A stretch of DNA of 64,000 nt, taken from assembly GCA_003599145.1 (NCBI GenBank), contig QZIT01000006.1, positions 62,001 through 126,000 on the forward strand, read 5' to 3'. A program made the translations under genes and the position numbers. Shown piece by piece: positions 3,691 through 57,405 of this stretch. The notes below the pieces were generated by a model that worked only from the letters and a program-made list of their open reading frames with translations, was not told the origin of the DNA and did not search any database. Source of the stretch: Candidatus Woesearchaeota archaeon (GTDB lineage: Archaea > Nanobdellota > Nanobdellia > Woesearchaeales > UBA9642). Every line of letters begins with the position of its first letter. Position 1 is the first letter of the stretch.

Positions 3691-5016
3691 ATGGACCGCC
3701 CTACGTTAGAGAGAATTCTGAAAGCAGTTCATAAAAAACGTATGAGAGTGCTTAACTCAGCACTTTTAAGGGGCTTTGCCATTCCCTATGATGCTGAAGA
3801 AATACCTCTTATTATTAAAGGGCTTAATGATGATTCTGTGGTGCTTGTTGACGGAAGCCATGAGTTTTTCAGGGCATACCTGAACTCTCCTCACGCTTAC
3901 AAAAAAGATGGAACTCCAAAAACAGAAAGGCGATTAACAGAGGAGCTGACATTAGTAGCGCGATACAGAGATGTGCCCTTTCGTAGGTTAAAGGAAATAC
4001 TTGATGCTGGAAAAGCAAAAAACATAGCAGATATGGTTGATTGCTCTCAATATGAATCTAGAGAAAAATTTCTTACTCAATTAGGACAGGGAGTTGCAGG
4101 CAAGACCTATCTGGTTTATTCTCCTGACTTTAAAAAGGAAATGGCCATGAAGATTGTTCACCCTGACTTTTATAGCCCTCTTGAAGTAGAGTTTTTAGCA
4201 AGATTGGATCATCCTAACATTGTTAGAATTTGGTACGCAGGAAAAAATTTGGTTTTAAGAAGAGGAAGCTTGGTGAATCATCCGGGAGAGGAAGTGTTTG
4301 CAATTCTCATGGACTATGTTGACGGCGTTACCCTTCGAGAATATATGAAGCAGCACCCAAAAGGAGTTTCTAAAGAGGAAGCAATAAAACTTTCATTCCA
4401 GCTTTTAACAGCAGTGCGCTATTTGAGAAGGCAGGGCGTTTTTCATAGAGACTTAAACCTTGAAAATATAAAAATAACCAGCGAAGGAAATATTAAAGTC
4501 ATCGACTTTGGCATTGCTACTAACGTTCAAGATGAGCCCAGGGATAATCGCAGATATGGCGGACCAAGCGATTTGTTCTCTTGGGCTCTTCTTACCTATA
4601 AAATTTGGACAGGAGAGCATCTTCTTGGAGAGCCTGATATGAGCACAAGAACCTTTGCTGAAGAGATACAGAAGTTGAAAACGCATATGCGTAATCCTGA
4701 TGGGACTCTTAAAAACATGTACAAACGCAAGATTGATGCTCTTGGTGAAGGTGCGCTTTCTCTTATTCTAAAGAGTGCGTTAAGTGTTTATACAACAGAG
4801 GTTCCTGATACTTTAAAAGGTCATTTTACTCCAGAAGACTTGCACACAGGAGTACTTTGGAATCACTTTAATTTGGCATACATCAATCTTAATCTTACTG
4901 AACGCATTGCGAGAAAGCTTGAAGAAAAAGACGGAAAAAGCATTTCGCGATGGGATGTCAGCGCAGTTGTAGGAGAGGTAATCAATGACCCAGACTTTGG
5001 AATCTACTTTAGATGA
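3691..5016 (+). CDS. Eukaryotic-like protein kinase 1 of four-gene cluster
   Basis: A 441-residue protein. Residues 1-120 are a helical N-terminal region; the kinase domain runs from about 128 to 330. Glycine loop LGQGVAGKTYLV (131-142), Lys in MAMKIV, alpha-C Glu in VEFLARL, hinge MDYVDG, catalytic loop HRDLNLEN (His252) and DFGIA (Asp272) are all present, so it should bind ATP and transfer phosphate. The activation segment is very short: only 22 residues from Asp272 to the Asp of SDLFSW, and there is no APE motif. The catalytic loop lacks the Lys of HRDLKPEN. The tail (330-441) is helical with no known domain. It overlaps the next gene by 32 nt. Substrate unknown. Confidence 0.85.
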   Translation: MDRPTLERILKAVHKKRMRVLNSALLRGFAIPYDAEEIPLIIKGLNDDSVVLVDGSHEFFRAYLNSPHAYKKDGTPKTERRLTEELTLVARYRDVPFRRLKEILDAGKAKNIADMVDCSQYESREKFLTQLGQGVAGKTYLVYSPDFKKEMAMKIVHPDFYSPLEVEFLARLDHPNIVRIWYAGKNLVLRRGSLVNHPGEEVFAILMDYVDGVTLREYMKQHPKGVSKEEAIKLSFQLLTAVRYLRRQGVFHRDLNLENIKITSEGNIKVIDFGIATNVQDEPRDNRRYGGPSDLFSWALLTYKIWTGEHLLGEPDMSTRTFAEEIQKLKTHMRNPDGTLKNMYKRKIDALGEGALSLILKSALSVYTTEVPDTLKGHFTPEDLHTGVLWNHFNLAYINLNLTERIARKLEEKDGKSISRWDVSAVVGEVINDPDFGIYFR

Positions 5017-6766
5017 TACAGCAAAGCAGAGAATTTTGCAAACAGTAGAATTGGAAAGAAGGAAAACGTTAGTTAAAAAACTGTATAGAGAAGGTTTACA
5101 ACATAGTGATGGGAATGTGAGAAGAGGGACTTGCCTCTGTGTGAGTGAGTTAGCAAGCATTGACGAAGAATTGTTTGAAGACCAGACATGTAGATTTTTG
5201 AATATGAGTCGATTGGGTCCTGTCCGTCGAGATTTGATGGTTGGGCAAAGTGAATATGAGGCAAATCATGCAGATTCTTTTTTTATTCGACTATTTGCGA
5301 AAGGGATTGTTGCCAGTCGCTGGATGAGTAAAAAACTGCCAAGACTGCTAAAACAAAAAATAAGGAATCATTTTCCAAATGCTTATGAAAAAACATATAG
5401 TTTAGGCATTAAAAGCTCTTCTGCATTTATCACCTATCATGCAGGAAGACTTATAGATGGTTTTTTTGGAAACCAAGAACTTTTTATGAACCATTTTCTT
5501 TTTGGAATAAAAGATGAAGATCGCTGGTTTGTTAGCGGATCATTTGCGAATAGTCATGAATATGTTTTAAGAAGCGCTACTGCAAAAGCTCTCGACCTTG
5601 TAGCATTAATAGATCCTATGACTTTTTTATACGTTTATTATCAAGGAATTGCAAACCCTGCTGATTATCCAGAGAAAAGTCAAATAGCTCAGATAAAGAA
5701 GTCAATTGCATCATCTTTAACAGGCATTGTGAAGACGTTAGACGTAAGCCCTATGAAACCCGTAGAAGATGCTGGTTGGTACTTTTTGAACGCATATTTG
5801 AATTCAAAATATATATTGGGAAAAACGGAAGCAGAAGTGCTTGCAGAGCTATTGCATTTAGTTCAATCACCTGACAGTGCCTATGCTCAAATGGAAAGGC
5901 CAGAACCAGATTATCAAAAACTTGCTGCCTTACTCGAGATAGGACAAGTAAAAAACGCAGAAGAGTTGTTTGATTGCGCACAGTATTCTGCAAAAGACGT
6001 TGTGTTCTTAAAAAAGCTTGGAGAAGGAGTTTCCGGAAAAACATATCTGGTTGATTCATTAACGTTGGGAAAGAGAATGGCCTTAAAAATTGTTGATTCA
6101 AGTGCCTATACTGAACAGGAAGCAAAAATATTGGCAGGTTTAAATCATAAAAACATTGTTCGAGTGTGGTATGCGAGTGATGCTTTGGTAAAAAAAGGTA
6201 ACACGCCAGTGCCAGCTATTTTAATGGATTATGTTGATGGCAAGACCTTGGAAGAGGTTATGCAGGACTATCCTGATGGGTTGCCTATCCTTTATTTTGC
6301 AGACGTTGCAAATCAACTTTTAGATGGAATAGCATATCTGAGAAGCCAAGGAGTTTTTCATAGAGATTTAAACTTGCGAAATATTAAAGTGAATAATTCT
6401 GGTGCTGTCAAAATACTGGACTTTGGTATTGCAGCTGATGTTAAAGATGTTCCTAAAAACAATAGAAAATATGGAGGCCCTACCGACTTATTTTCTTTTG
6501 GGCTGATTGTTTACAAATTGAGGACAGGACGACATCTTCTTGATGATTTTGATAAAGACTGCGAAAGTAATAGTTATGCAGAGAAGATTGAAAGAGCAAA
6601 AAGAGTAATGTTGGGGGAGGATGGACGATTGTTGCTTGATTATATGTTGAAACTGCCAAAAATGAACTATGGAAAAAGCAGTGTCCCGGAATATACAACA
6701 TTATTTGCACTTCAGAACAATGAGCAATTGTTAAAAATGGGGTTTCCTATAATCCATGACACTTGA
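4985..6766 (+). CDS. Eukaryotic-like protein kinase 2 with HEAT-like N-terminal region
   Basis: A 593-residue protein. Start at 4985 is supported by the ribosome binding site AGGAGAGG inside the end of kinase 1. Residues 20-300 contain HEAT-like helical pairs (for example NVRRGTCLCVSELASIDEEL and LRSATAKALDLVALIDP). The kinase domain begins at LGEGVSGKTYLV (345), with MALKIV, catalytic loop HRDLNLRN (His459) and DFGIA (Asp479). As in its neighbours the activation segment is short and runs directly into KYGGPTDLFSFG. A 47-nt block near its start (5033-5079) is identical to the equivalent block of kinase 3. The stop overlaps the next start. Confidence 0.87.
   Translation: MTQTLESTLDDTAKQRILQTVELERRKTLVKKLYREGLQHSDGNVRRGTCLCVSELASIDEELFEDQTCRFLNMSRLGPVRRDLMVGQSEYEANHADSFFIRLFAKGIVASRWMSKKLPRLLKQKIRNHFPNAYEKTYSLGIKSSSAFITYHAGRLIDGFFGNQELFMNHFLFGIKDEDRWFVSGSFANSHEYVLRSATAKALDLVALIDPMTFLYVYYQGIANPADYPEKSQIAQIKKSIASSLTGIVKTLDVSPMKPVEDAGWYFLNAYLNSKYILGKTEAEVLAELLHLVQSPDSAYAQMERPEPDYQKLAALLEIGQVKNAEELFDCAQYSAKDVVFLKKLGEGVSGKTYLVDSLTLGKRMALKIVDSSAYTEQEAKILAGLNHKNIVRVWYASDALVKKGNTPVPAILMDYVDGKTLEEVMQDYPDGLPILYFADVANQLLDGIAYLRSQGVFHRDLNLRNIKVNNSGAVKILDFGIAADVKDVPKNNRKYGGPTDLFSFGLIVYKLRTGRHLLDDFDKDCESNSYAEKIERAKRVMLGEDGRLLLDYMLKLPKMNYGKSSVPEYTTLFALQNNEQLLKMGFPIIHDT
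5033..5079 (+). repeat. 47-nt direct repeat, copy 1 (kinase 2 N-terminus)
   Basis: Identical over 47 nt to 6786-6832. It encodes the RILQTVELERRKTLVKK segment of kinases 2 and 3. The rest of the two genes has diverged much more, so this looks like recent gene conversion or strong constraint on the nucleotide sequence. Confidence 0.9.
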
Positions 6767-8372
6767 CGATAAAGTAAAGGAACGTATTTTGCAAACAGTA
6801 GAATTGGAAAGAAGGAAAACGTTAGTTAAAAAGCTCTATAGAGACGGATTAAATCATACAGAATTTTCTTTCCGCCTAGGAACTGTTGAAGCCCTCGACG
6901 GTTTGGCAGAAGTTGATAAGGATCTTTTTTATAGGGTTGTAACTTACTTAACAGGTCTAGATATAGACCAGCGGATAAGAGACGCTGCTATGGAAGTGGA
7001 AAAACGTGTGCATGACAATGTACGTTCAGGAAGAGACCATAACCTTCCTCTTGAAGTTAGAGGAAAACAGAAAGGATACAAGCTCTTTCCTCATACTGTT
7101 GAAGGACAGAACGCTATGGTTGATGCATTGCCAAGCCTTGCACAGCAAGACCCTGAAGAATTCTTGAGATGTTATTATTTTATGCAAAATTTTTATCACC
7201 ACGCCTTAGAACTTTTCGAAAAACCTGACTTCTTTATACGCAGTACGCTCTATGAACATAGACTTTTTTTTGATGAGTTTTTGAGAAAAACGGCTGCTTC
7301 TTTAGGCACGTTTGCTAAAACGATTTTTCAGGAGCCTATTCTCTTTATTGACGATCTTGAGCATTGCTTTTATACTGATTATTTGTCTTCGCATTATGCA
7401 AGAGGTAAGACGGAAAGAGAGCTTTGTGACGAGCTTGTTATATTTGCAAGAGATATGTCAGTGGTGCAGAACGATACTTTTTACGGAAATTTGCTTATCG
7501 CACTAGAGTATGCTAAAGCATCAGATCTTGAGGAGTTAAAAGACTGCGCAAGATATTCCTCTCCGGGCGAACAACTTGTTAAGCGTTTAGGTTCAGGCGC
7601 TTCAGGGTCAACTTTTTTAATTAATTCAGAAAGCTTTGGAAAAGAAATGGCTCTGAAAGTATTTAAGCCGTATCCTTATTTTTATAGCGAATCTGAGCTA
7701 AAAATTTTATCTGATTTGCAGCATCCTAATATCGTAAGAGTGTGGCACGGAGGAGAACGCGAGTTATCTTCAGATCCTTTTTTTATTTTTCATGAAGACA
7801 AAACTCCAGGATACATCATGATTAGCCATGTTTATACATTACTTATGGATTATGTTACAGGCAGAACTCTTGAAGAACTCATAGAAGACTATCCCAACGG
7901 ATTGCACCCAGAGCATCTCTTGGACATCGCGCAACAACTGCTGAGTGCCATTCAATATTTAAGAAGCGAAGGGATTTTTCATAGAGACTTGACTTTGCGG
8001 AATATAAAATTTGATGATGCAGGAACATTGAAAGTGATTGACTTTGGCATTGCGACAGATGTTCAGCAAAAACCTCGAGATAATCGCAAATATGGTGGAC
8101 CAAGTGATTTGTTCTCTTGGGGACTTATTATTTACAAACTTGCAACAGGCAAACACTTGTTGGGATCGAAAAACCCTTTAGAGAAAACAACAGATTATGC
8201 TCAGGCTATTCAAAAAATAAAGCAAAACATGTTTGAGCCTGATGGTGCTCTAAAAAAGAAATACTCTGCTAAACTCTATCATGATATCCTGCCTTTGGCA
8301 GATGCCATTATTATGGCTCTGCAGGATAACGATGCGGTCTTTCATCACACGATGCCGAGGATACTGAAATGA
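6756..8372 (+). CDS. Eukaryotic-like protein kinase 3 with HEAT-like N-terminal region
   Basis: A 538-residue paralogue of the preceding kinase, with which it shares the N-terminal stretch RILQTVELERRKTLVKKLYR almost exactly, then HEAT-like helices (FRLGTVEALDGLAEVDKDLF). A pre-kinase element shared by the first three kinases (YLSSHYARGKTERELCDEL here) and the linker LKDCARYSS precede the glycine loop LGSGASGSTFLI (278). MALKVF, HRDLTLRN (His409) and DFGIA (Asp429) are intact, and the short activation segment reads DNRKYGGPSDLFSWG. It has an insertion before the hinge (about 335-355). The start overlaps kinase 2 by 11 nt and the end overlaps kinase 4 by 4 nt (ATGA). Confidence 0.87.
   Translation: MTLDDKVKERILQTVELERRKTLVKKLYRDGLNHTEFSFRLGTVEALDGLAEVDKDLFYRVVTYLTGLDIDQRIRDAAMEVEKRVHDNVRSGRDHNLPLEVRGKQKGYKLFPHTVEGQNAMVDALPSLAQQDPEEFLRCYYFMQNFYHHALELFEKPDFFIRSTLYEHRLFFDEFLRKTAASLGTFAKTIFQEPILFIDDLEHCFYTDYLSSHYARGKTERELCDELVIFARDMSVVQNDTFYGNLLIALEYAKASDLEELKDCARYSSPGEQLVKRLGSGASGSTFLINSESFGKEMALKVFKPYPYFYSESELKILSDLQHPNIVRVWHGGERELSSDPFFIFHEDKTPGYIMISHVYTLLMDYVTGRTLEELIEDYPNGLHPEHLLDIAQQLLSAIQYLRSEGIFHRDLTLRNIKFDDAGTLKVIDFGIATDVQQKPRDNRKYGGPSDLFSWGLIIYKLATGKHLLGSKNPLEKTTDYAQAIQKIKQNMFEPDGALKKKYSAKLYHDILPLADAIIMALQDNDAVFHHTMPRILK
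6786..6832 (+). repeat. 47-nt direct repeat, copy 2 (kinase 3 N-terminus)
   Basis: Second copy of the 47-nt block also found at 5033-5079, in the same reading frame and at the same position relative to the start of the gene. Confidence 0.9.
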
Positions 8373-11116
8373 CACTTGACGATACTTTGAACCAACCTGG
8401 AAGTTTTGGCAGGCCTCATCATAAAGAGCAAGAGTATTTTGAAATGCCTGATCGGAAATTCCTATTGGCGCAGCATAGAGATGGTAGTCCTTGGGCTTTT
8501 TATTCTCATGAAGGAAAAATATTCGATTTTTTTGGAACGCCTGAATTGAATTTTACTTTTTTGAAAATCTATGGGAAGAGATATGGATTGAATCGTTCTG
8601 CGGTGCTATCTGAAGATGGCGAGCCTAAACATTTTATAAAATTAGAACGTCCTGTAGGATCAGTATACAAAGTTGGAGATCGATATTTTATTCAACAGAC
8701 GAATGACCTTTTAAAATATCCTATGCTTTCCTCGCTCACTGATGCTGAAGTGTTGCATTTGTCAGACTTTGACGATGAAGATATGGATTTAAAAGATGTT
8801 GTATCTGTTGGTGGAGAGTTGTATGCACTGGTGGTTGACCGATCTGAAGAGGCCAATTTTAATGAATTAGGAATCCACGATAAAACTGGAGAACTCCCTG
8901 ATATTCCTTCTATTCGTTTTAGCGGTTTGGTTTCTGTTGATGGTGTTCCTTACGTTCTAGGAGCTACTTCGTACGCAATGGGGATGTGGGATGTGAGGAC
9001 TCTGGTCAAAAATAAGCTCAGTGGAATAAAGTTTCCTGATCATGTTAACAGGGTTTCTAAAGTTTCTTTGCACCATCAAAACTTGGTTTTGCTCTATTCA
9101 GGGAGAAATGCCGTGCAAGTTTTTGACCCTGAAACGTTTTCGCTACTTGATGGAGTATATACAAGCAATGACGTCATTCATGATCTTCATGGAAAATCAT
9201 ATTTAACTGTTCAAAATGAACTTGGCTGGAACATCTTTGATGCTAGTCAATGCTTGATGGTTGAACGTCCTCTTAAAGAAAAGCCTGTGCAAATAATCCA
9301 ATTTGATGGCAAGAACCATATTCTTGCTGAAGACTTGGTAGCATATACGCTTGAAGGAAAAGAAACTAAGTTATTTCAGAACATTAAGAACGCCGTGAGT
9401 TCAAAACAACTAGTGTTTAAGCAGTTTTTTGCGTCTGCGAATTCATTTTATGTTGTTATGGGGCAAGTTCCAGGAGTAGAACCTGATGATGTGCAACCAA
9501 CTATAGTTTCCTCAGAAGGACGCGCTGATTGTTTTCAAGGACCCCATAATGTTTTAGATCATGTATTTTATCATCAAGGGAAACCGATTGTTTTGGCAAA
9601 AAAAACCTGGCATGGTCCTTGGAATTTTTATGATGAACAGGGTGTAAGTTCTGCGTTTCCAAAAGCATATACTAGGGATCCTGTTTTTTCGTTCATAGAC
9701 GGCGTGGAAATACTGCATCCTGGGCAAACAAAAACAGCGTTTATTGCAGAAGACAGATTGAGATTTAAAAGTAAAGATCATTTTAGGAAAAGTAAGTACG
9801 GCATGCATAAACACGTTGATTCTATCTATGATGCAGTGCAAAAATGGCTAGCAGCCCAGCCTAATGCAACCATTGTTGGAGAGAACTTCACGCTTGATGC
9901 TTCTATAGCGGAAGCATTGTCAGAAAACGAGATGTTGCATACTGTTGCAACATATTTTGATTATCCTGTATCTGAAGCTTTGAGATTATTGACGCCAGTA
10001 CTTAAAAATGAGCAATCATATGCTGTTTGGGATAGTTTGTTTAAGAGTACTTCTTTATTTCAACGAAAACTGTCATTAGCACAACAGGTTAAAGTATCAG
10101 CAGATTTATCATCACCTACCAGTCTTGAAGCGTATAAAAAAACAATGAATGCAATTGGTTATTTGAGAACAAAGCATAAGAACACTTCAGGAACGCTTGC
10201 AGATCTTGTTGACTGTTCTCGATTTTCAGGTCCGGAATTATTTTTGGAAAAACTCGGTTCTGGAAAAGCCGGAATAACGTATTTAGTTTACTCTCCAACA
10301 TTGGATAAAGAAATGGCCATGAAAATAGTCAAAGATGAATTTTTCAATCCAGAGGAAGCGAAAGTGCTATCTCAGTTGAGCCATCCTAATATTGTGAGAG
10401 TGTGGTACGCAAGTGATACAACGGTAAAGAAAGATGAAAAACCTGTGCATGCTATTTTGATGGATTATGTTGATGGAAAAACTTTGGAAGAGCTTGTTAA
10501 AGAAAACCCTCAAGGTTTATCGGTCGACCAGGTAATTCCTATCGCTTTGCAACTTTTCAATGCAGTATATTATTTGCAAAAGAATAATATTTTTCATCGT
10601 GATTTAAACTTGAGGAATGTTAAAATGGATAGCTTAGGGAGACTGAAAGTGATGGATTTTGGCATCGCTTCTAGCCTCGGTGCATCTCCCAAAGACAATA
10701 GGAAGTTTGGTGGAGGTTCAGATTTATTCTCCTACGGCCTTATTCTTTATCATTTGCTTACAGGAATTCATTTTATTGACGATGAGTGCGCAGTGGGTGT
10801 AAGCTCTGCACATGCAGAAAAATTAGCAGAAGCTATTCTAAGATTGAGAACACCTAACGGTGATTTTAAACCAGAGTATGAAGCAAAGCTTGAAAAAGAA
10901 GGATTGGGTCGCCTTGCAGATGTTATTGATATGTCTTTAAAGTATCCTGATAATGTTGACGGTATGAGATATCGCTTAGAAAATTTGACAGGCTATAAAG
11001 ACTTAGACATGACTCAACAGTTGAAACAAGAATTGGAAGAATTGCTAGGTCATCCTTTAAACTACATGACCTTTTTTACGCTAGTTCAAAAAATAAACAA
11101 AGATACTTTAAAATAG
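8369..11116 (+). CDS. Protein kinase 4 with large N-terminal beta-propeller-like domain
   Basis: A 915-residue protein, the largest of the cluster. Residues about 25-480 are rich in short strands with repeated 'GxxYxLxxxS' and 'VFDPETFSLLDG'-like blades, suggesting a beta-propeller or similar sensor; this fold is an inference. After a helical linker and the shared element LADLVDCSRFSG, the kinase domain starts at LGSGKAGITYLV (about 629) with MAMKIV, HRDLNLRN (His743) and DFGIA (Asp763); the activation segment ends DNRKFGGGSDLFSYG. No transmembrane segment or signal peptide is seen, so the propeller probably senses something in the cytosol. It begins with MTLDD like kinase 3, and the ATGA overlap indicates translational coupling. 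Confidence 0.87.
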   Translation: MTLDDTLNQPGSFGRPHHKEQEYFEMPDRKFLLAQHRDGSPWAFYSHEGKIFDFFGTPELNFTFLKIYGKRYGLNRSAVLSEDGEPKHFIKLERPVGSVYKVGDRYFIQQTNDLLKYPMLSSLTDAEVLHLSDFDDEDMDLKDVVSVGGELYALVVDRSEEANFNELGIHDKTGELPDIPSIRFSGLVSVDGVPYVLGATSYAMGMWDVRTLVKNKLSGIKFPDHVNRVSKVSLHHQNLVLLYSGRNAVQVFDPETFSLLDGVYTSNDVIHDLHGKSYLTVQNELGWNIFDASQCLMVERPLKEKPVQIIQFDGKNHILAEDLVAYTLEGKETKLFQNIKNAVSSKQLVFKQFFASANSFYVVMGQVPGVEPDDVQPTIVSSEGRADCFQGPHNVLDHVFYHQGKPIVLAKKTWHGPWNFYDEQGVSSAFPKAYTRDPVFSFIDGVEILHPGQTKTAFIAEDRLRFKSKDHFRKSKYGMHKHVDSIYDAVQKWLAAQPNATIVGENFTLDASIAEALSENEMLHTVATYFDYPVSEALRLLTPVLKNEQSYAVWDSLFKSTSLFQRKLSLAQQVKVSADLSSPTSLEAYKKTMNAIGYLRTKHKNTSGTLADLVDCSRFSGPELFLEKLGSGKAGITYLVYSPTLDKEMAMKIVKDEFFNPEEAKVLSQLSHPNIVRVWYASDTTVKKDEKPVHAILMDYVDGKTLEELVKENPQGLSVDQVIPIALQLFNAVYYLQKNNIFHRDLNLRNVKMDSLGRLKVMDFGIASSLGASPKDNRKFGGGSDLFSYGLILYHLLTGIHFIDDECAVGVSSAHAEKLAEAILRLRTPNGDFKPEYEAKLEKEGLGRLADVIDMSLKYPDNVDGMRYRLENLTGYKDLDMTQQLKQELEELLGHPLNYMTFFTLVQKINKDTLK

Positions 11117-11120
11117 ATTT

Positions 11121-12068
11121 CTAGCAATACTCTTCCATATGCAGTGCAATATACGTCTCTGAAAAATCGTTGATGGTGTCCAATAAAATCTTGCATTCTG
11201 CAATAACTTTGAATTCCTCGAGAGTAAATTTTTCCCTGTTTACTTTATGCATCAATGCGTATCTTTTCTTTACCAATGCATTCAATTGCTCTTTGCTGTA
11301 CTGCTTTTTCAAGATGACATCAAACTGCTCTAAAAAGAAGGTAAATAATTCTTTGAGTATTTTTTTGATGTGCTCCTTGCGCTTGAGCAAAACAACCTGT
11401 TCTGCAGTATGGCGAAGCTTGTCAAGTATTTTATCCAAAACCATAAATAAGCTAAACAGTCTCATTTTCTTATCCTCTTCAAGATTTGCATACTGCAATA
11501 ATCTTAGATAATAATAGCAGAATTTAGTGATGTTGTCATGTAAGTCATAGGATTTTTCATGAAACTCCTTGAAAGTATCCATGCTGGCTATAAATTCATC
11601 CAGATAGTCTTTGAGCAGATAGTAAATCCTCTGCAAAATGATGTCACTTTTCTCATAGTCTTCCTGAAGAATCAGCGTTTGTAATACAATACAGTTCTTT
11701 TTTTGAGAGACAATTTCAACGCCTATGAATCGTTCAATAACTCTTTTAATGCGCGTATGAACATTGATCGTTTCTTCTCGTTTATAATCGGGAATGAGTT
11801 CATTGCTGAATACCAGCGTTATCTCTTCAACGCCTTGCCGGTAAAACTCCCATAAGTATCTATTGATCGTTATTTTATTAAGCCCATCGATGTTCAACGT
11901 GACTTTTTTTCTTTTCTTTTCAGTTTTTTCTTTGGAAACTCTCAGTTGCATGCCTTCTTCTTCAACATCCAGTTCATCTCCCTGCTTGATATTGTGCTTT
12001 TTTGCCCATGCGCTTGGCAAGCTTACGGTTAAGGTATTCTGGCCAACAAGATTGACTTTTCTTTTCAT
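11121..12068 (-). CDS. AbrB-PhoU-like regulator (first of three)
   Basis: A 315-residue protein. Residues 1-45 (MKRKVNLVGQNTLTVSLPSAW, then KKHNIKQGDELDVEEE) form a SpoVT/AbrB swapped-hairpin DNA-binding domain; residues about 90-310 are all helical with the spacing of PhoU-type bundles. Archaeal AbrB-PhoU proteins are usually linked to phosphate uptake control, but no pst genes are nearby. It is divergent from the Lrp-like gene at 12202, an arrangement repeated at 55902-57405. It is convergent with the kinase operon, with only 4 nt between them. Confidence 0.8.
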   Translation of the reverse strand: MKRKVNLVGQNTLTVSLPSAWAKKHNIKQGDELDVEEEGMQLRVSKEKTEKKRKKVTLNIDGLNKITINRYLWEFYRQGVEEITLVFSNELIPDYKREETINVHTRIKRVIERFIGVEIVSQKKNCIVLQTLILQEDYEKSDIILQRIYYLLKDYLDEFIASMDTFKEFHEKSYDLHDNITKFCYYYLRLLQYANLEEDKKMRLFSLFMVLDKILDKLRHTAEQVVLLKRKEHIKKILKELFTFFLEQFDVILKKQYSKEQLNALVKKRYALMHKVNREKFTLEEFKVIAECKILLDTINDFSETYIALHMEEYC

Positions 12069-12201: not shown

Positions 12202-12657
12202 ATGTTGACGCCGAAAGAAAAAAAATTGATTGCTGGGCTGAGAAACAATGCTCGTCAGAAGATTAAAACGATTGCGCAGAAGAACAATCTGCCGGTATCA
12301 AGTATGTTTGAATTACTGAATAAACTGGAAAAAAACAACATTATCCAGCATTCCTGCAGAGTCAACTTTGACAGCATAGGATACCCTGTGCGAATGTACA
12401 TAACGCTAAAAACAGAGCTGCAAAACAGAGAACCACTCCAATTGTATCTTGAGCAGCATAAACAGGTCAATAGCCTGCATATCATTAACTCAGGCTATGA
12501 CTTTTTAGTTGAGGCTGTTTTTAAAAACCAAAAGCAGGCGCAGGACTTCATGGATTTGCTGGAAGTTAACAATGCCATAGTCAAAAAAAATGTGTACAAT
12601 GTCATTGAAACCATCCATCAAGAACGGTTTTTGACAGAAGAAGAACATTTTGACTAA
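12202..12657 (+). CDS. Lrp/AsnC-family-like regulator
   Basis: A 151-residue protein. Residues 1-55 are a helix-turn-helix (RNNARQKIKTIAQKNNLPVSSMFELLNKLEKNNII), followed by a RAM-like alpha/beta ligand or dimer domain (about 60-140) with the GYDFLVEAVF core. It resembles the regulator at 55902 in length and pattern (both have 'NSGYDFLVEAVF / NNGYDFMLESVF'), so the two are paralogues. The ATG at 12202 has no clear ribosome binding site; a TATA-like AGTATATATA about 40-50 nt upstream fits a short-leader transcript. Confidence 0.8.
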   Translation: MLTPKEKKLIAGLRNNARQKIKTIAQKNNLPVSSMFELLNKLEKNNIIQHSCRVNFDSIGYPVRMYITLKTELQNREPLQLYLEQHKQVNSLHIINSGYDFLVEAVFKNQKQAQDFMDLLEVNNAIVKKNVYNVIETIHQERFLTEEEHFD

Positions 12658-14372: not shown

Positions 14373-15593
14373 ATGAATATTCAGGAACAAATACAGTACA
14401 TTGCAAGAGGAACAGTTGATTTAATAACAAAAGATGATTTGTTATGGAAACTGCAAAAAGCAGAACGTGAAAAACGGTCTATGGTGGTTAAATATGGCGT
14501 TGACCCTACTGCTCCTGAAATGCATCTAGGACATACCGTTCCCTTAAGAAAATTAAAGCATTTTCAGGACATTGGTCATGCCGTTACTTTTTTGATTGGC
14601 GATTTTACAGCAAGAATAGGCGATCCTACAGGGAGATCTTCAGGAAGACAGGCAATGACCGAGGAAGAAGTACTTGCAAATGCCCAATCCTATAAAGAGC
14701 AGATATTCAAAATCTTAAATCCAGAAAAAACAATCATTGTTTATAATAGCGACTGGTTAAAGCCATTGGCATTAGAACAGCTTATTGGATTACTTGCAAA
14801 AAATACCGTCAATAATTTAATTAAACGAAAAAGTTTTGTCAAGCGCTTTGAAAATGGAGAGCCTGTTGCAGGACATGAATTGATTTATCCTTTTTTGCAG
14901 GCGTATGACTCTGTTGCTTTAAACGCAGATGTTGAATTAGGCGGAACAGACCAGTATTTTAATTTAGTTTTTGGAAGAGACTTGCAGCCTAGTTATGGTC
15001 AGGAATCCCAGGTGGTTGTTACAACGCCTTTGCTTGAAGGTCTTGATGGCAATGAAAAAATGAGCAAGTCATTGGGAAACACTATAGGATTAGATGCATC
15101 TGCAATTGACATGTATGCAAAGCTTATGCAGATAAGAGATCATTTGATGATTAAATACTTTACACTGTTAACTGATATGGATGACCTTGAATTAGGAAAA
15201 TTGGAAGTTGCGCTTGCACAGGAAACCATACATCCTTTGGATGTCAAGAAAAGACTTGCTCGCGATATTACTTCTCAGTACCATTCCCTTGAGCAAACAA
15301 AAGAGGCAGAGGAAGAATTTATGAGAGTCTATTCAAGGGGAGAATTGCCTTCTTCGCTTGATACGATTGTTATTAAGCAGGATCAAACAGCAAATGGAAT
15401 AATGACGCCAGTAGCACTTATGAGGCTTGCAGGGATGGCAGAAAGCAATAGTGAAGCTCGAAGATTAATAACGCAAAGGGGATTTAGCATCGATGGAATA
15501 GTTATAGAAAACCCCTATGCAGATATTGCTGTTAAAACTGATATGATTTTGCGTGTTGGAAAAACTAAATATGCAAAAATTGCCTATGAATGA
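14373..15593 (+). CDS. tyrS: Tyrosyl-tRNA synthetase, bacterial type with S4 domain
   Basis: A 406-residue class I synthetase. HIGH-type motif HLGH at 51-54, LIGDFTARIGDPTGRS, tyrosine-site LGGTDQYFNL, and KMSKS at 229-233. A C-terminal S4 RNA-binding domain occupies about 340-406. Archaeal/eukaryal TyrRS lack the S4 domain and have a KMSSS-like motif, so this is the bacterial TyrZ-like form, probably acquired by transfer. The ribosome binding site AGGAGGT lies in the end of the decarboxylase gene. Whether it charges the archaeal-type tRNA-Tyr found at 16298 is an open question. Confidence 0.92.
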   Translation: MNIQEQIQYIARGTVDLITKDDLLWKLQKAEREKRSMVVKYGVDPTAPEMHLGHTVPLRKLKHFQDIGHAVTFLIGDFTARIGDPTGRSSGRQAMTEEEVLANAQSYKEQIFKILNPEKTIIVYNSDWLKPLALEQLIGLLAKNTVNNLIKRKSFVKRFENGEPVAGHELIYPFLQAYDSVALNADVELGGTDQYFNLVFGRDLQPSYGQESQVVVTTPLLEGLDGNEKMSKSLGNTIGLDASAIDMYAKLMQIRDHLMIKYFTLLTDMDDLELGKLEVALAQETIHPLDVKKRLARDITSQYHSLEQTKEAEEEFMRVYSRGELPSSLDTIVIKQDQTANGIMTPVALMRLAGMAESNSEARRLITQRGFSIDGIVIENPYADIAVKTDMILRVGKTKYAKIAYE

Positions 15594-54658: not shown

Positions 54659-55630
54659 TTACTGGTAGCTTATTCTTGAAATGTCGTGGACGTACGTCAG
54701 CATCATCTGCAGTCGCTGCATTAGTAGTTGTTGCTGCTTGAATACGGTTTCCTGATCTTCCCAGTCTTCAATTTTGTTTTTAATCATCGAACGCTTTTTG
54801 GCAATTTCAAAAGCGATGGAGCGGTCTTTCTTGTAGTAGGACTTCATCGCATTGACATAGACGTTCTCAATTTGGGTAAACAGCTCGAAGATTTTTCTCA
54901 CTGCTTCTTTCTGCTTTTCTGTTTTGACATCTTCTCTGGATTTTTCAACCAATCGGGCAATGCGTTTGACTTCATCTCCTATTTTTTCAACAAGTTTGAC
55001 GATGTCGTACAATTCTAACAGATAATGGGGCATCAGTTTGTTCTTTTTGATGAAATTCGTGTCATCAATGCCGTATCTGATGGTTCTTAGGGCCAAAAAC
55101 GTCAATCGGTTAATGTCTCTGTCTCTTGAATTAAAGACTTCGTCAACTTTTTTCCCTTCTTCGTGCATGGTTTTGAGGTCATACATCATCGATCTGAGAA
55201 TCATGTCCACTTTTCTGACGATGTTGGTGATGGAAATATTGTCCATGTCAAGAAAGTCTTTTGCGGTTATTCTCTTGCTGGTCTGTTCCATAATTTCAAG
55301 CGCAACAAGGTTGTTGATGATGTCTCTTATGCCAAGAGATTTTTCAGAAAGGTCGTCTCCCGTAATGACGATGTTGTGGTAATTGTTGATGTATGCTGCG
55401 GTGATTTCTCTTTGGATATGAAAAATGTCTTTGTTGTTGATATCAATAGTTATGCTCTTTTTCTCCTTTTTTATCTCGGTTAGCTTTGGAGTGAGCAAAA
55501 TTTCCCCGTTGTTGCTCATGTCCAAATACACAGGGTCGCCTTTTTTCAGGTTATGCTGATCTATCCAGTCTTTAGGCAAAGAAATAACAAATGAGGAATT
55601 GCCGAACTTAATCATCTTTCTGTATTCCAT
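54659..55630 (-). CDS. AbrB-PhoU-like regulator (second of three)
   Basis: 323 residues from the ATG ending at 55630 (MEYRKMIKFGNSSFVISLPK), which follows GAGGGGTGA. AbrB-type domain at 1-48, PhoU-like helical bundle at about 80-320 with repeated 'RDIINNLVALEIMEQ' and 'DEVKRIARLVEKS' helices. It is more divergent from the other two, which resemble each other in length. Divergent from the small acidic gene at 55740. Confidence 0.82.
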   Translation of the reverse strand: MEYRKMIKFGNSSFVISLPKDWIDQHNLKKGDPVYLDMSNNGEILLTPKLTEIKKEKKSITIDINNKDIFHIQREITAAYINNYHNIVITGDDLSEKSLGIRDIINNLVALEIMEQTSKRITAKDFLDMDNISITNIVRKVDMILRSMMYDLKTMHEEGKKVDEVFNSRDRDINRLTFLALRTIRYGIDDTNFIKKNKLMPHYLLELYDIVKLVEKIGDEVKRIARLVEKSREDVKTEKQKEAVRKIFELFTQIENVYVNAMKSYYKKDRSIAFEIAKKRSMIKNKIEDWEDQETVFKQQQLLMQRLQMMLTYVHDISRISYQ

Positions 55631-55739
55631 GCGAATCACCCCTCAAAGCATATACTGAATATATGCCATATATAATATAGAGAATAACTATATATTTATA
55701 AATGTTATTACTAGTTATATAACCTATGGGGGTGGTAGC

Positions 55740-55880
55740 ATGGAAGAACAACTGTTTGATGAGGATGTTATCGACGACCTTGACTTTTACTCTGAAGACA
55801 TCATCGAGAAATTGCTTGAATACGACGAGCTTACCGGCGAAGAAGCCGCATTCATGCGTGGCTATGAAGAGGAAATATAG
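55740..55880 (+). CDS. Small acidic protein, 46 aa
   Basis: ATG at 55740 to TAG at 55878. It begins MEEQLFDEDVIDDLDFYSED and is strongly acidic with one helix. GGGGGTGG precedes the ATG and a TATA-like stretch (about 55700-55720) lies upstream. It may bind the neighbouring regulators or act as a DNA mimic; no family recognised. Confidence 0.6.
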   Translation: MEEQLFDEDVIDDLDFYSEDIIEKLLEYDELTGEEAAFMRGYEEEI

Positions 55881-55901
55881 TCTGGTATATTTTTTCTTTT
55901 T

Positions 55902-56354
55902 TTAGAATATCCTATCGGGGTTTGCTAAAAAGCACTCTCTTTTGAGCTCTTCTATGATATAATAGGCCTTTTTATCCAGTATTCTGAACTTGACTTCAAG
56001 CTGCTCAAGAAAGTCTTCCATATCTTTGACGGTTTCAAAGACAGATTCAAGCATGAAGTCGTAGCCGTTGTTGATTTTATACAGGGAATTGATTCTTTCC
56101 TGTTTCAGCAGAATGCTTCTTACCTCTTCTCTGTGGTCTCTTTCCACTTTTAGTATGATAGTTGCCCTGCAGTGAAATCCAAGCGCAGGAAAGTTTACCA
56201 AGGTCGTATGCTTGGTAATGATCTGTCTCTTCTGGTAGCTTTTGAGCCTGTCGAACAGGGTAGAGATGGGGCAGTGGGTCTTTTTGCTGATGTCAGTCAA
56301 GGACTGTCGTGCATCTTCCCTCAAATGAACCAAAAGTAAGTCTTTCTTTTCCAT
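55902..56354 (-). CDS. Lrp/AsnC-family-like regulator (paralogue of 12202)
   Basis: 150 residues. Helix-turn-helix (LREDARQSLTDISKKTHCPISTLFDRLKSYQKRQII) and a RAM-like domain with NNGYDFMLESVF. It parallels the protein at 12202 in length and motifs, and like it is divergent from an AbrB-PhoU gene (56497). The 142-nt spacer is very AT-rich with an ATTATATAAT-type palindrome near 56402-56415. Confidence 0.8.
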   Translation of the reverse strand: MEKKDLLLVHLREDARQSLTDISKKTHCPISTLFDRLKSYQKRQIITKHTTLVNFPALGFHCRATIILKVERDHREEVRSILLKQERINSLYKINNGYDFMLESVFETVKDMEDFLEQLEVKFRILDKKAYYIIEELKRECFLANPDRIF

Positions 56355-56496
56355 GATATCACCGAAATGAGTTCTATCTGTAGAAAATATATAACTTTTT
56401 ATTATATTATATAATAATTATAAGAAATATATAAAAAAAGTATTTTTATGTAAAAAAAACGAAATATTTAAATTATCACCTTGATTACCTGCTTTC

Positions 56497-57405
56497 ATGA
56501 AGCGAAAGGTCATTCAGCTTGCAGGTAAGACGCACGTACTTTCCCTGCCGTATAAGTGGGTTCGAAAGTACAATATCAAGAAAGGGGAGGAGCTGGATAT
56601 GCTGGAAGATGGCCAGAAAATTATCATCAGCACTTCAAGTCTGCAGCAGCTCAAAAAAAAGGATATTGATGCAAAAAAATTGAAGATTATTCTTGCGCGA
56701 TTGATTGGAGCAGTATACAAAGCAGGCTTTGATGAGATAGAAGTGCGCTATGAAAATGCAGAACAGTACAGCAGCATCAAGAAATGCCTCGATAGAACAT
56801 GCATAGGGATGGAAATTGTGGAGCACGGCAATAACAGAGTATTGATCAAGAATATCTCGCTTCCGCAGGCAGACCAGTTTGACAACGTTTTAAGAAGGCT
56901 TTTTCTGTCTCTTTTGGCCATGGCAGATGATGGTTTAGATGCAGCAACCAAAAAAAATGAGGATGCGTTGCAGGAATTAATACTGCGAGATGATGCTATC
57001 AACAAGTACAGCGATTTCTGCAGGAGAATTTTAAATACTAAGGGAACAGATTCAACTATGCGGGCAGCGCCTTTGTATTATATTGTTGAACAGCTTGAAA
57101 GAATTGGCGATACCTATAGGGATATTGCTTTATTGCTGCAGGAAGAGTTTGTCGTATTTTCAAAGCCAGTCAATGCATGGTATCAGTCAGTCAATACCTA
57201 TCTGAGATCATTTTATCTGCTGTATTATAGCTTCGACCTTGAAAAAGTTGAACGTCTTGGGGAACAGTATCTTGCTCTAGAAAAATCGTTTGATAAAGTG
57301 CTGAAGCAGGCAACGAAAAAAGAGTCTATTTTTGTTTTTTATTTAAAAAAAATACTTGAAGATGTATGGGATATGAATGGAGCATTATTAACTGCAAAGC
57401 TCTAA
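56497..57405 (+). CDS. AbrB-PhoU-like regulator (third of three)
   Basis: 302 residues. AbrB-type domain at 1-45 (MKRKVIQLAGKTHVLSLPYK, WVRKYNIKKGEELDMLED), then a PhoU-like helical domain to the end. It closely matches the protein at 11121 in layout and opening (MKRKV.L.G..TL/VLSLP). The ATG follows ATATTTAAATT at the distance of a leaderless promoter. Role unknown, probably transcription control. Confidence 0.82.
   Translation: MKRKVIQLAGKTHVLSLPYKWVRKYNIKKGEELDMLEDGQKIIISTSSLQQLKKKDIDAKKLKIILARLIGAVYKAGFDEIEVRYENAEQYSSIKKCLDRTCIGMEIVEHGNNRVLIKNISLPQADQFDNVLRRLFLSLLAMADDGLDAATKKNEDALQELILRDDAINKYSDFCRRILNTKGTDSTMRAAPLYYIVEQLERIGDTYRDIALLLQEEFVVFSKPVNAWYQSVNTYLRSFYLLYYSFDLEKVERLGEQYLALEKSFDKVLKQATKKESIFVFYLKKILEDVWDMNGALLTAKL

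Follow-up and report, generated by a model that had tools for sequence, protein, structure and literature searches.

Can a protein kinase still phosphorylate proteins after losing the part of its activation segment that anchors the substrate, and if so, which protein would it act on? The question is raised by four tandem kinase genes, K1 to K4, in a 64,000-nucleotide stretch of a Woesearchaeota archaeon (contig QZIT01000006.1, positions 62,001 to 126,000; the whole stretch is called the window here). Their products have a strongly shortened activation segment, and a gene for a DNA-binding regulator of the AbrB type converges on the last of them. We suggest, with a probability of roughly 0.6, that K1 to K4 are active Hanks kinases, reduced secondarily, and that they act together with this dedicated regulator, probably by phosphorylating it.

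The shortened activation segment

In each of the four kinases 22 residues lie between the Asp of the DFG motif and the Asp that opens helix F. An earlier note on this DNA had given 22-24 and had located the deletion only roughly; the shortening itself is confirmed, with an exact value of 22 in all four. The same spacing is 22-32 in about 35 short relatives from other genomes, and 34-70 (median 40) in the APE-bearing kinases compared. Because the shortening is shared by four copies with pairwise identities of 42-48% and by these relatives, it cannot be attributed to chance or sequencing error.

The segment reads NRxYGGP(S/T)DLFS in K1-K3 and NRKFGGGSDLFS in K4, and all motifs quoted in the earlier note, including the catalytic loop HRDL(N/T)L(R/E)N, are indeed present. 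At the APE position the window kinases have GGP or GGG. The claim that no APE motif exists is thus right for the Glu, which is absent in all four, and too strong for the Pro, which three of the four copies still possess (GGP). Looking for an APE-equivalent loop elsewhere, a finding that would have spoken against the note, brought up this Pro remnant and neither a Glu nor a helix.

Counted from the DFG Asp to the Pro, the segment has almost its normal length (20 residues versus at least 22 in APE kinases), and from the Pro to the helix-F Asp it is cut to 2 residues from 12-19; the shortening therefore lies mostly beyond the Pro. What has gone is mostly the APE Glu with helix EF and the linker before helix F, and the activation loop proper is little affected. 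In our alignment N-R-x-Y-G-G-P of the window falls on T-P-x-Y-x-A-P of GTPxYxAPE; profile-profile and HMMER alignments to S. aureus PknB likewise place a large gap at this site, in a slightly different register. Aligned relatives form a graded series that runs from NRLYGAPEFKINEEHANSDIWS, where APE is kept, through RRFGAPASMEASDLIS, RRYGTPSRTYANDLFS and RRFGVPSDMKSNDLFS to RRYGGPSDLFS of the window, then NRxYGGNNDLIS and lastly YNRAFGTHDLVA. The intermediates that locate the deletion are GAPEFK..., GAPASMEA, GTPSRTYA, GGPS and GTH.

The approach to helix F is reduced further, to YGTHDLVA, in three relatives (L117:8981-10429, L149:526-3168 and L118:3-1685), which keep the Lys of HRDxKP. Judged by these motifs, the YGTHDLVA kinases represent a separate path of reduction.

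Loss of the Glu-Arg pair and retention of the catalytic core

The Glu208-Arg280 ion pair, together with the segment from APE to helix F, has been described as a defining feature of eukaryotic protein kinases (ePKs; PMC3415842) and as part of an ePK/pknB network (PMC1821047), setting such kinases apart from simpler kinase-like enzymes. Both residues of the pair are missing from the window kinases, as is the extended, APE-ended segment of the Hanks/PknB-ePK group, and neither the APE Glu nor the helix H-I Arg occurs in any short kinase. Kinases of the same order that bear APE show CLxxxPxxRY in the helix H-I region, and the Arg is present in every one of them that has the APE Glu and a complete C-lobe; the corresponding region of the short kinases (LLDDDLWTQP, CLIAKNHHYK, ALQDNDAVFH and others) lacks that Arg. 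With the APE Glu and its partner Arg gone, and helix EF with them, the substrate-binding side must differ from that of typical kinases, as the earlier note had anticipated.

The core of the Hanks/PknB-ePK group is retained. All four kinases have the Pkinase fold, the Gly loop, the VAIK Lys, the helix-C Glu, the HRD Asp, the Asn and the DFG. Moreover, a comparison of 26 divergent short members finds K57, E70, HxD, N172 and D185 unchanged or almost so, despite a mean column identity of about 18%, which argues for catalysis under selection; from these residues we infer that the short kinases are catalytically active. An AlphaFold2 model of the K3 domain (predicted local distance difference test, pLDDT, 79.5; predicted template modelling score, pTM, 0.80) shows a two-lobed kinase in which an unstructured segment passes directly into helix F at residue 202; this helix starts at the Asp. 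Helix EF is lacking and helices are predicted at the expected places of G, H and I, so structure prediction, proposed in the note as a check, yields no normal activation segment. PknA and PknB rank first in a Foldseek search with this model (template modelling score about 0.6).

Among known kinases, the bacterial Hanks kinases PknB, PknA, Stk1 and StkP are the best sequence and fold matches, sharing the two-lobed fold and all ATP-site and catalytic residues. Unlike them, the window kinases lack the APE Glu, helix EF and the helix H-I Arg, span DFG to helix F in 22 instead of about 40 residues, and carry another residue at the catalytic-loop Lys position.

The loops of the four window copies share no conserved Ser or Thr, and activation through a phosphorylated T-loop is for this reason unlikely. 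Switching on would more probably proceed through the N-terminal regions, and the substrate would be bound by docking rather than in a normal P+1 site.

Distribution and origin of the short kinases

Relatives were gathered by profiles within the same order and phylum (samples of 288 and 371 genomes), and phyla beyond were scanned with N-lobe peptides only. In a tree computed without the activation-segment columns, 40 short-segment kinases form one group, found mainly in one archaeal order and parted from the APE kinases by a single branch. As this group seems to have a single origin (support 79), the loss of Glu and Arg represents one or two events rather than forty; both residues were also lost independently in L130. 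The sequences show that this clade of PknB-like Hanks kinases lacks the APE Glu, helix EF, the linker and the helix H-I partner Arg, a loss that appears secondary.

The N-lobe-peptide scan of genome contigs led to bacterial kinases, and those with a readable loop, setting aside Prevotellaceae matches that lack HRD, nearly all have a normal APE-like region. A scan of viral contigs gave no relative. Our survey of the open-licence literature found no description of the group or of a linkage between kinases and AbrB, and the short-segment kinases are apparently an undescribed group. The genome of the window (1.31 Mb, 6 contigs) additionally encodes one normal Hanks kinase, one Bud32 and one RIO-like kinase.

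The AbrB-type regulator as a probable partner

The protein encoded convergently with K4 has an AbrB/MazE domain (PF04014, 37.2 bits versus a cut-off of 24.7). For its helical C-terminal part the best natural PDB sequence match is the PhoU protein 4q25 (weak, E = 0.005); the MazE/AbrB domain, as in AbrB-type regulators, is N-terminal. The structure model of the regulator is poor (pLDDT 61), gave no significant fold match and does not confirm the weak PhoU likeness.

A convergent AbrB gene lies immediately downstream in 15 of the 21 short-kinase clusters with a readable flank, from 11 families and two orders (the window, L117-L119, L131, L132, L134, L135, L138, L140, L142, L148, L149, L182 and L183). 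Three other clusters have it two or three genes off (L137, L141 and L145), and no such gene is found nearby in the remaining three (L139, L144 and L146). This count omits clusters cut by contig ends and L181, whose segment is not alignable, and the adjacency counts rest on mechanical open reading frame calls. Each genome has about five AbrB genes of this kind, so that well under 1% of random neighbours would belong to them, with the proviso that the loci share gene-order ancestry and are not independent. Normal kinases of the same archaea are paired in the same way (L186, L187, L188, L189, L190 and L195).

Among 64 AbrB proteins placed in a tree, 16 are neighbours of short kinases, and 11 of these, including the window protein and one member from another order, form a clade without other members (Shimodaira-Hasegawa-like approximate likelihood ratio test, SH-aLRT = 100), and this clade is found only beside short kinases. 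This co-inheritance is our main ground for considering the AbrB protein a cognate partner. The likeliest partner of the kinases, and perhaps their substrate, would be this convergently encoded AbrB-fold/helical DNA-binding regulator, whose subfamily is confined to these loci. Residues invariant specifically in the clade include Ser121 and Tyr270, which are candidate phosphorylation sites. Kinase and regulator, linked in the genomes, would then constitute a signalling pair in which phosphorylation of the AbrB protein affects transcription. A wider proposal, that the tandem kinases without the ePK substrate anchor form a new archaeal phospho-signalling system in which each cluster has its dedicated AbrB regulator as substrate, is more tentative.

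A second site in the window (54659-57405) has two AbrB-family genes (54659-55639 on the minus strand and 56497-57405 on the plus strand) on either side of an Lrp-like gene (55902-56354, minus strand), without a kinase.

Alternative explanations

Apart from a shorter loop, the short kinases could be ordinary Hanks Ser/Thr kinases in which the Pro remnant and its neighbours form a usable P+1 site, the substrates are ordinary ones and the AbrB protein is a bystander. The strong Pkinase matches (Table 1), the near-normal stretch from DFG to Pro and the first rank of PknA and PknB in Foldseek would all fit. However, the P+1 loop lost its anchor with the Glu, its partner Arg and helix EF, and 11 families repeat the AbrB linkage, with a regulator clade of its own, so that we consider this explanation unlikely.

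Pseudokinases or nucleotide-sensing scaffolds that control the AbrB protein without phosphate transfer are a less probable alternative. Most short kinases indeed lack the Lys of HRDLKPEN (the position is occupied by H, R, N, K, T, Y or G), and DFG has become DLG, DLS or DLH in some relatives. The ATP-site and catalytic residues are nevertheless kept in all four copies and across divergent members, and that Lys is dispensable in tyrosine kinases, which function without it.

The earlier note had drawn an analogy to tyrosine kinases, and a tyrosine-type or small-molecule specificity, the latter as in eukaryotic-like kinases (ELKs), would be another possibility. Three copies share with eukaryotic tyrosine kinases (HRDLAARN) the Arg at HRD+4, and the catalytic-loop Lys is absent from both. 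The analogy does not extend to the family: Arg occupies HRD+4 in just 13 of 39 short kinases, the others having A, K, N, G, H, E, Q, L or D, which looks like drift rather than a tyrosine-kinase trait, and the wider group includes HRDLKPKN and HRDIRPAN loops. Moreover, no tyrosine-kinase P+1 motif is seen, and PF07714 (Tyr/Ser-Thr) is outscored by Pkinase in all four; with the catalytic-loop positions varying so freely, we rejected a tyrosine-kinase identity. As to the ELKs, Bud32, RIO, ABC1 and choline-kinase-like proteins have the short, unregulated DFG-helix F segment and neither APE nor the Glu-Arg pair (PMC3415842), and the window kinases give weak ABC1 and APH matches. These matches are far weaker than those to Hanks kinases, and the ABC1 and APH models are likewise beaten by Pkinase. 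Bud32 matches stay far under the curated cut-off, K1 alone has an ABC1 match above the Pfam cut-off (31.6 bits versus 98.4 for Pkinase), and the Pfam search gave no RIO match in K1-K4; membership of these families was rejected, as none of their models reaches its cut-off ahead of Pkinase. Unlike ELKs, the window kinases keep the NR-x-(Y/F)-GG remnant of the P+1 loop, and this remnant and the graded intermediates make the reduced state look secondary. As genes for a small-molecule pathway are not evident beside the cluster either, we find a tyrosine-type or ELK-type function very improbable.

Defence kinases of the MAD6 or PD-T4-6 type are hardly credible, since the PADLOC matches (E 1e-24 to 1e-33) are expected of any Hanks kinase, the NCBIfam MAD6 scores of about 81-85 bits compare with a cut-off of 460, and no methylase, nuclease or other defence gene immediately flanks the cluster.

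The reading of K1 to K4 as active, reduced kinases acting on an AbrB partner also has points that weigh against it. Support for the branch joining the short kinases is modest (79) and comes from quick trees whose deep branches are weakly supported, and the activation segment of the K3 model is of low confidence (pLDDT below 50 at residues 190-198). Five AbrB genes adjoining short kinases fall outside the exclusive clade, and the family is convergent with non-kinase genes as well. Among 57 AbrB genes examined in the family of the window regulator (11121-12068 and the related loci L198-L254), 41 have a convergent next gene, arranged 3'-to-3' and often with an overlap of a few bases; the partners comprise 13 kinases, about four more that are APH-like, and varied others including HAD and PHP. 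The idea of an AbrB gene that invariably faces a kinase had to be softened accordingly, and convergence alone is therefore no proof that the partner is the substrate.

Organization of the locus

The kinase genes overlap one another (Table 1) and probably form a single operon.

Table 1. Kinase genes of the window, their catalytic loops and the adjoining regulator genes
Feature	Position	Strand	Particulars
Kinase K1	3691..5016	+	441 aa; helical N-terminal region, kinase domain from about residue 113; Pfam Pkinase E = 6e-28
Kinase K2	4985..6766	+	593 aa; 32-base overlap with K1; Pfam Pkinase E = 2e-27
Kinase K3	6756..8372	+	538 aa; 11-base overlap with K2; Pfam Pkinase E = 3e-29
Kinase K4	8369..11116	+	915 aa; 4-base overlap with K3; Pfam Pkinase E = 1e-26
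K1 catalytic loop HRDLNLEN to helix-F Asp	4444..4572	+	shortened segment 4504-4572
K2 catalytic loop HRDLNLRN to helix-F Asp	6359..6487	+	shortened segment 6419-6487
K3 catalytic loop HRDLTLRN to helix-F Asp	7980..8108	+	shortened segment 8040-8108
K4 catalytic loop HRDLNLRN to helix-F Asp	10595..10723	+	shortened segment 10655-10723
AbrB/MazE-fold regulator, all-helical C-terminal part	11121..12068	-	315 aa; convergent with K4; Pfam MazE_antitoxin E = 3e-9
Lrp/AsnC-like regulator	12202..12657	+	divergent from AbrB gene; NCBIfam Lrp_Halo E = 4e-11, under cut-off

About 600 residues ahead of the kinase domain of K4 (8369-10150) have no Pfam match and by eye resemble a beta-repeat sensor. K2 (4985-5080) and K3 (6756-6850) have a near-identical N-terminal stretch (ERILQTVELERRKTLVKKLYR) and are far less similar in the remainder, a pattern that suggests recent duplication or gene conversion. 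The Lrp/AsnC-like gene may be part of the kinase locus; genes of about 150 aa, few of them compared by sequence, occupy its position beside the AbrB gene in L132, L134, L135, L137 and L129. A tyrosyl-tRNA synthetase gene close by (14373-15593) has no match (E <= 1e-20) in five same-family genomes and was possibly acquired horizontally.

Implications

The short kinases offer a natural experiment on whether the Glu-Arg network is required for protein phosphorylation, as the clade has lost the ion pair together with the segment from APE to helix F and kept the catalytic residues. Their conserved pairing with a dedicated regulator points to a specific protein as candidate substrate, in a group of archaea about whose signalling little is known. 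If the wider and more tentative proposal of a new phospho-signalling system holds, the pair would be a Hanks-kinase counterpart of the two-component pair, and the kinases would have naturally reversed the step that is regarded as separating ePKs from simpler kinases.

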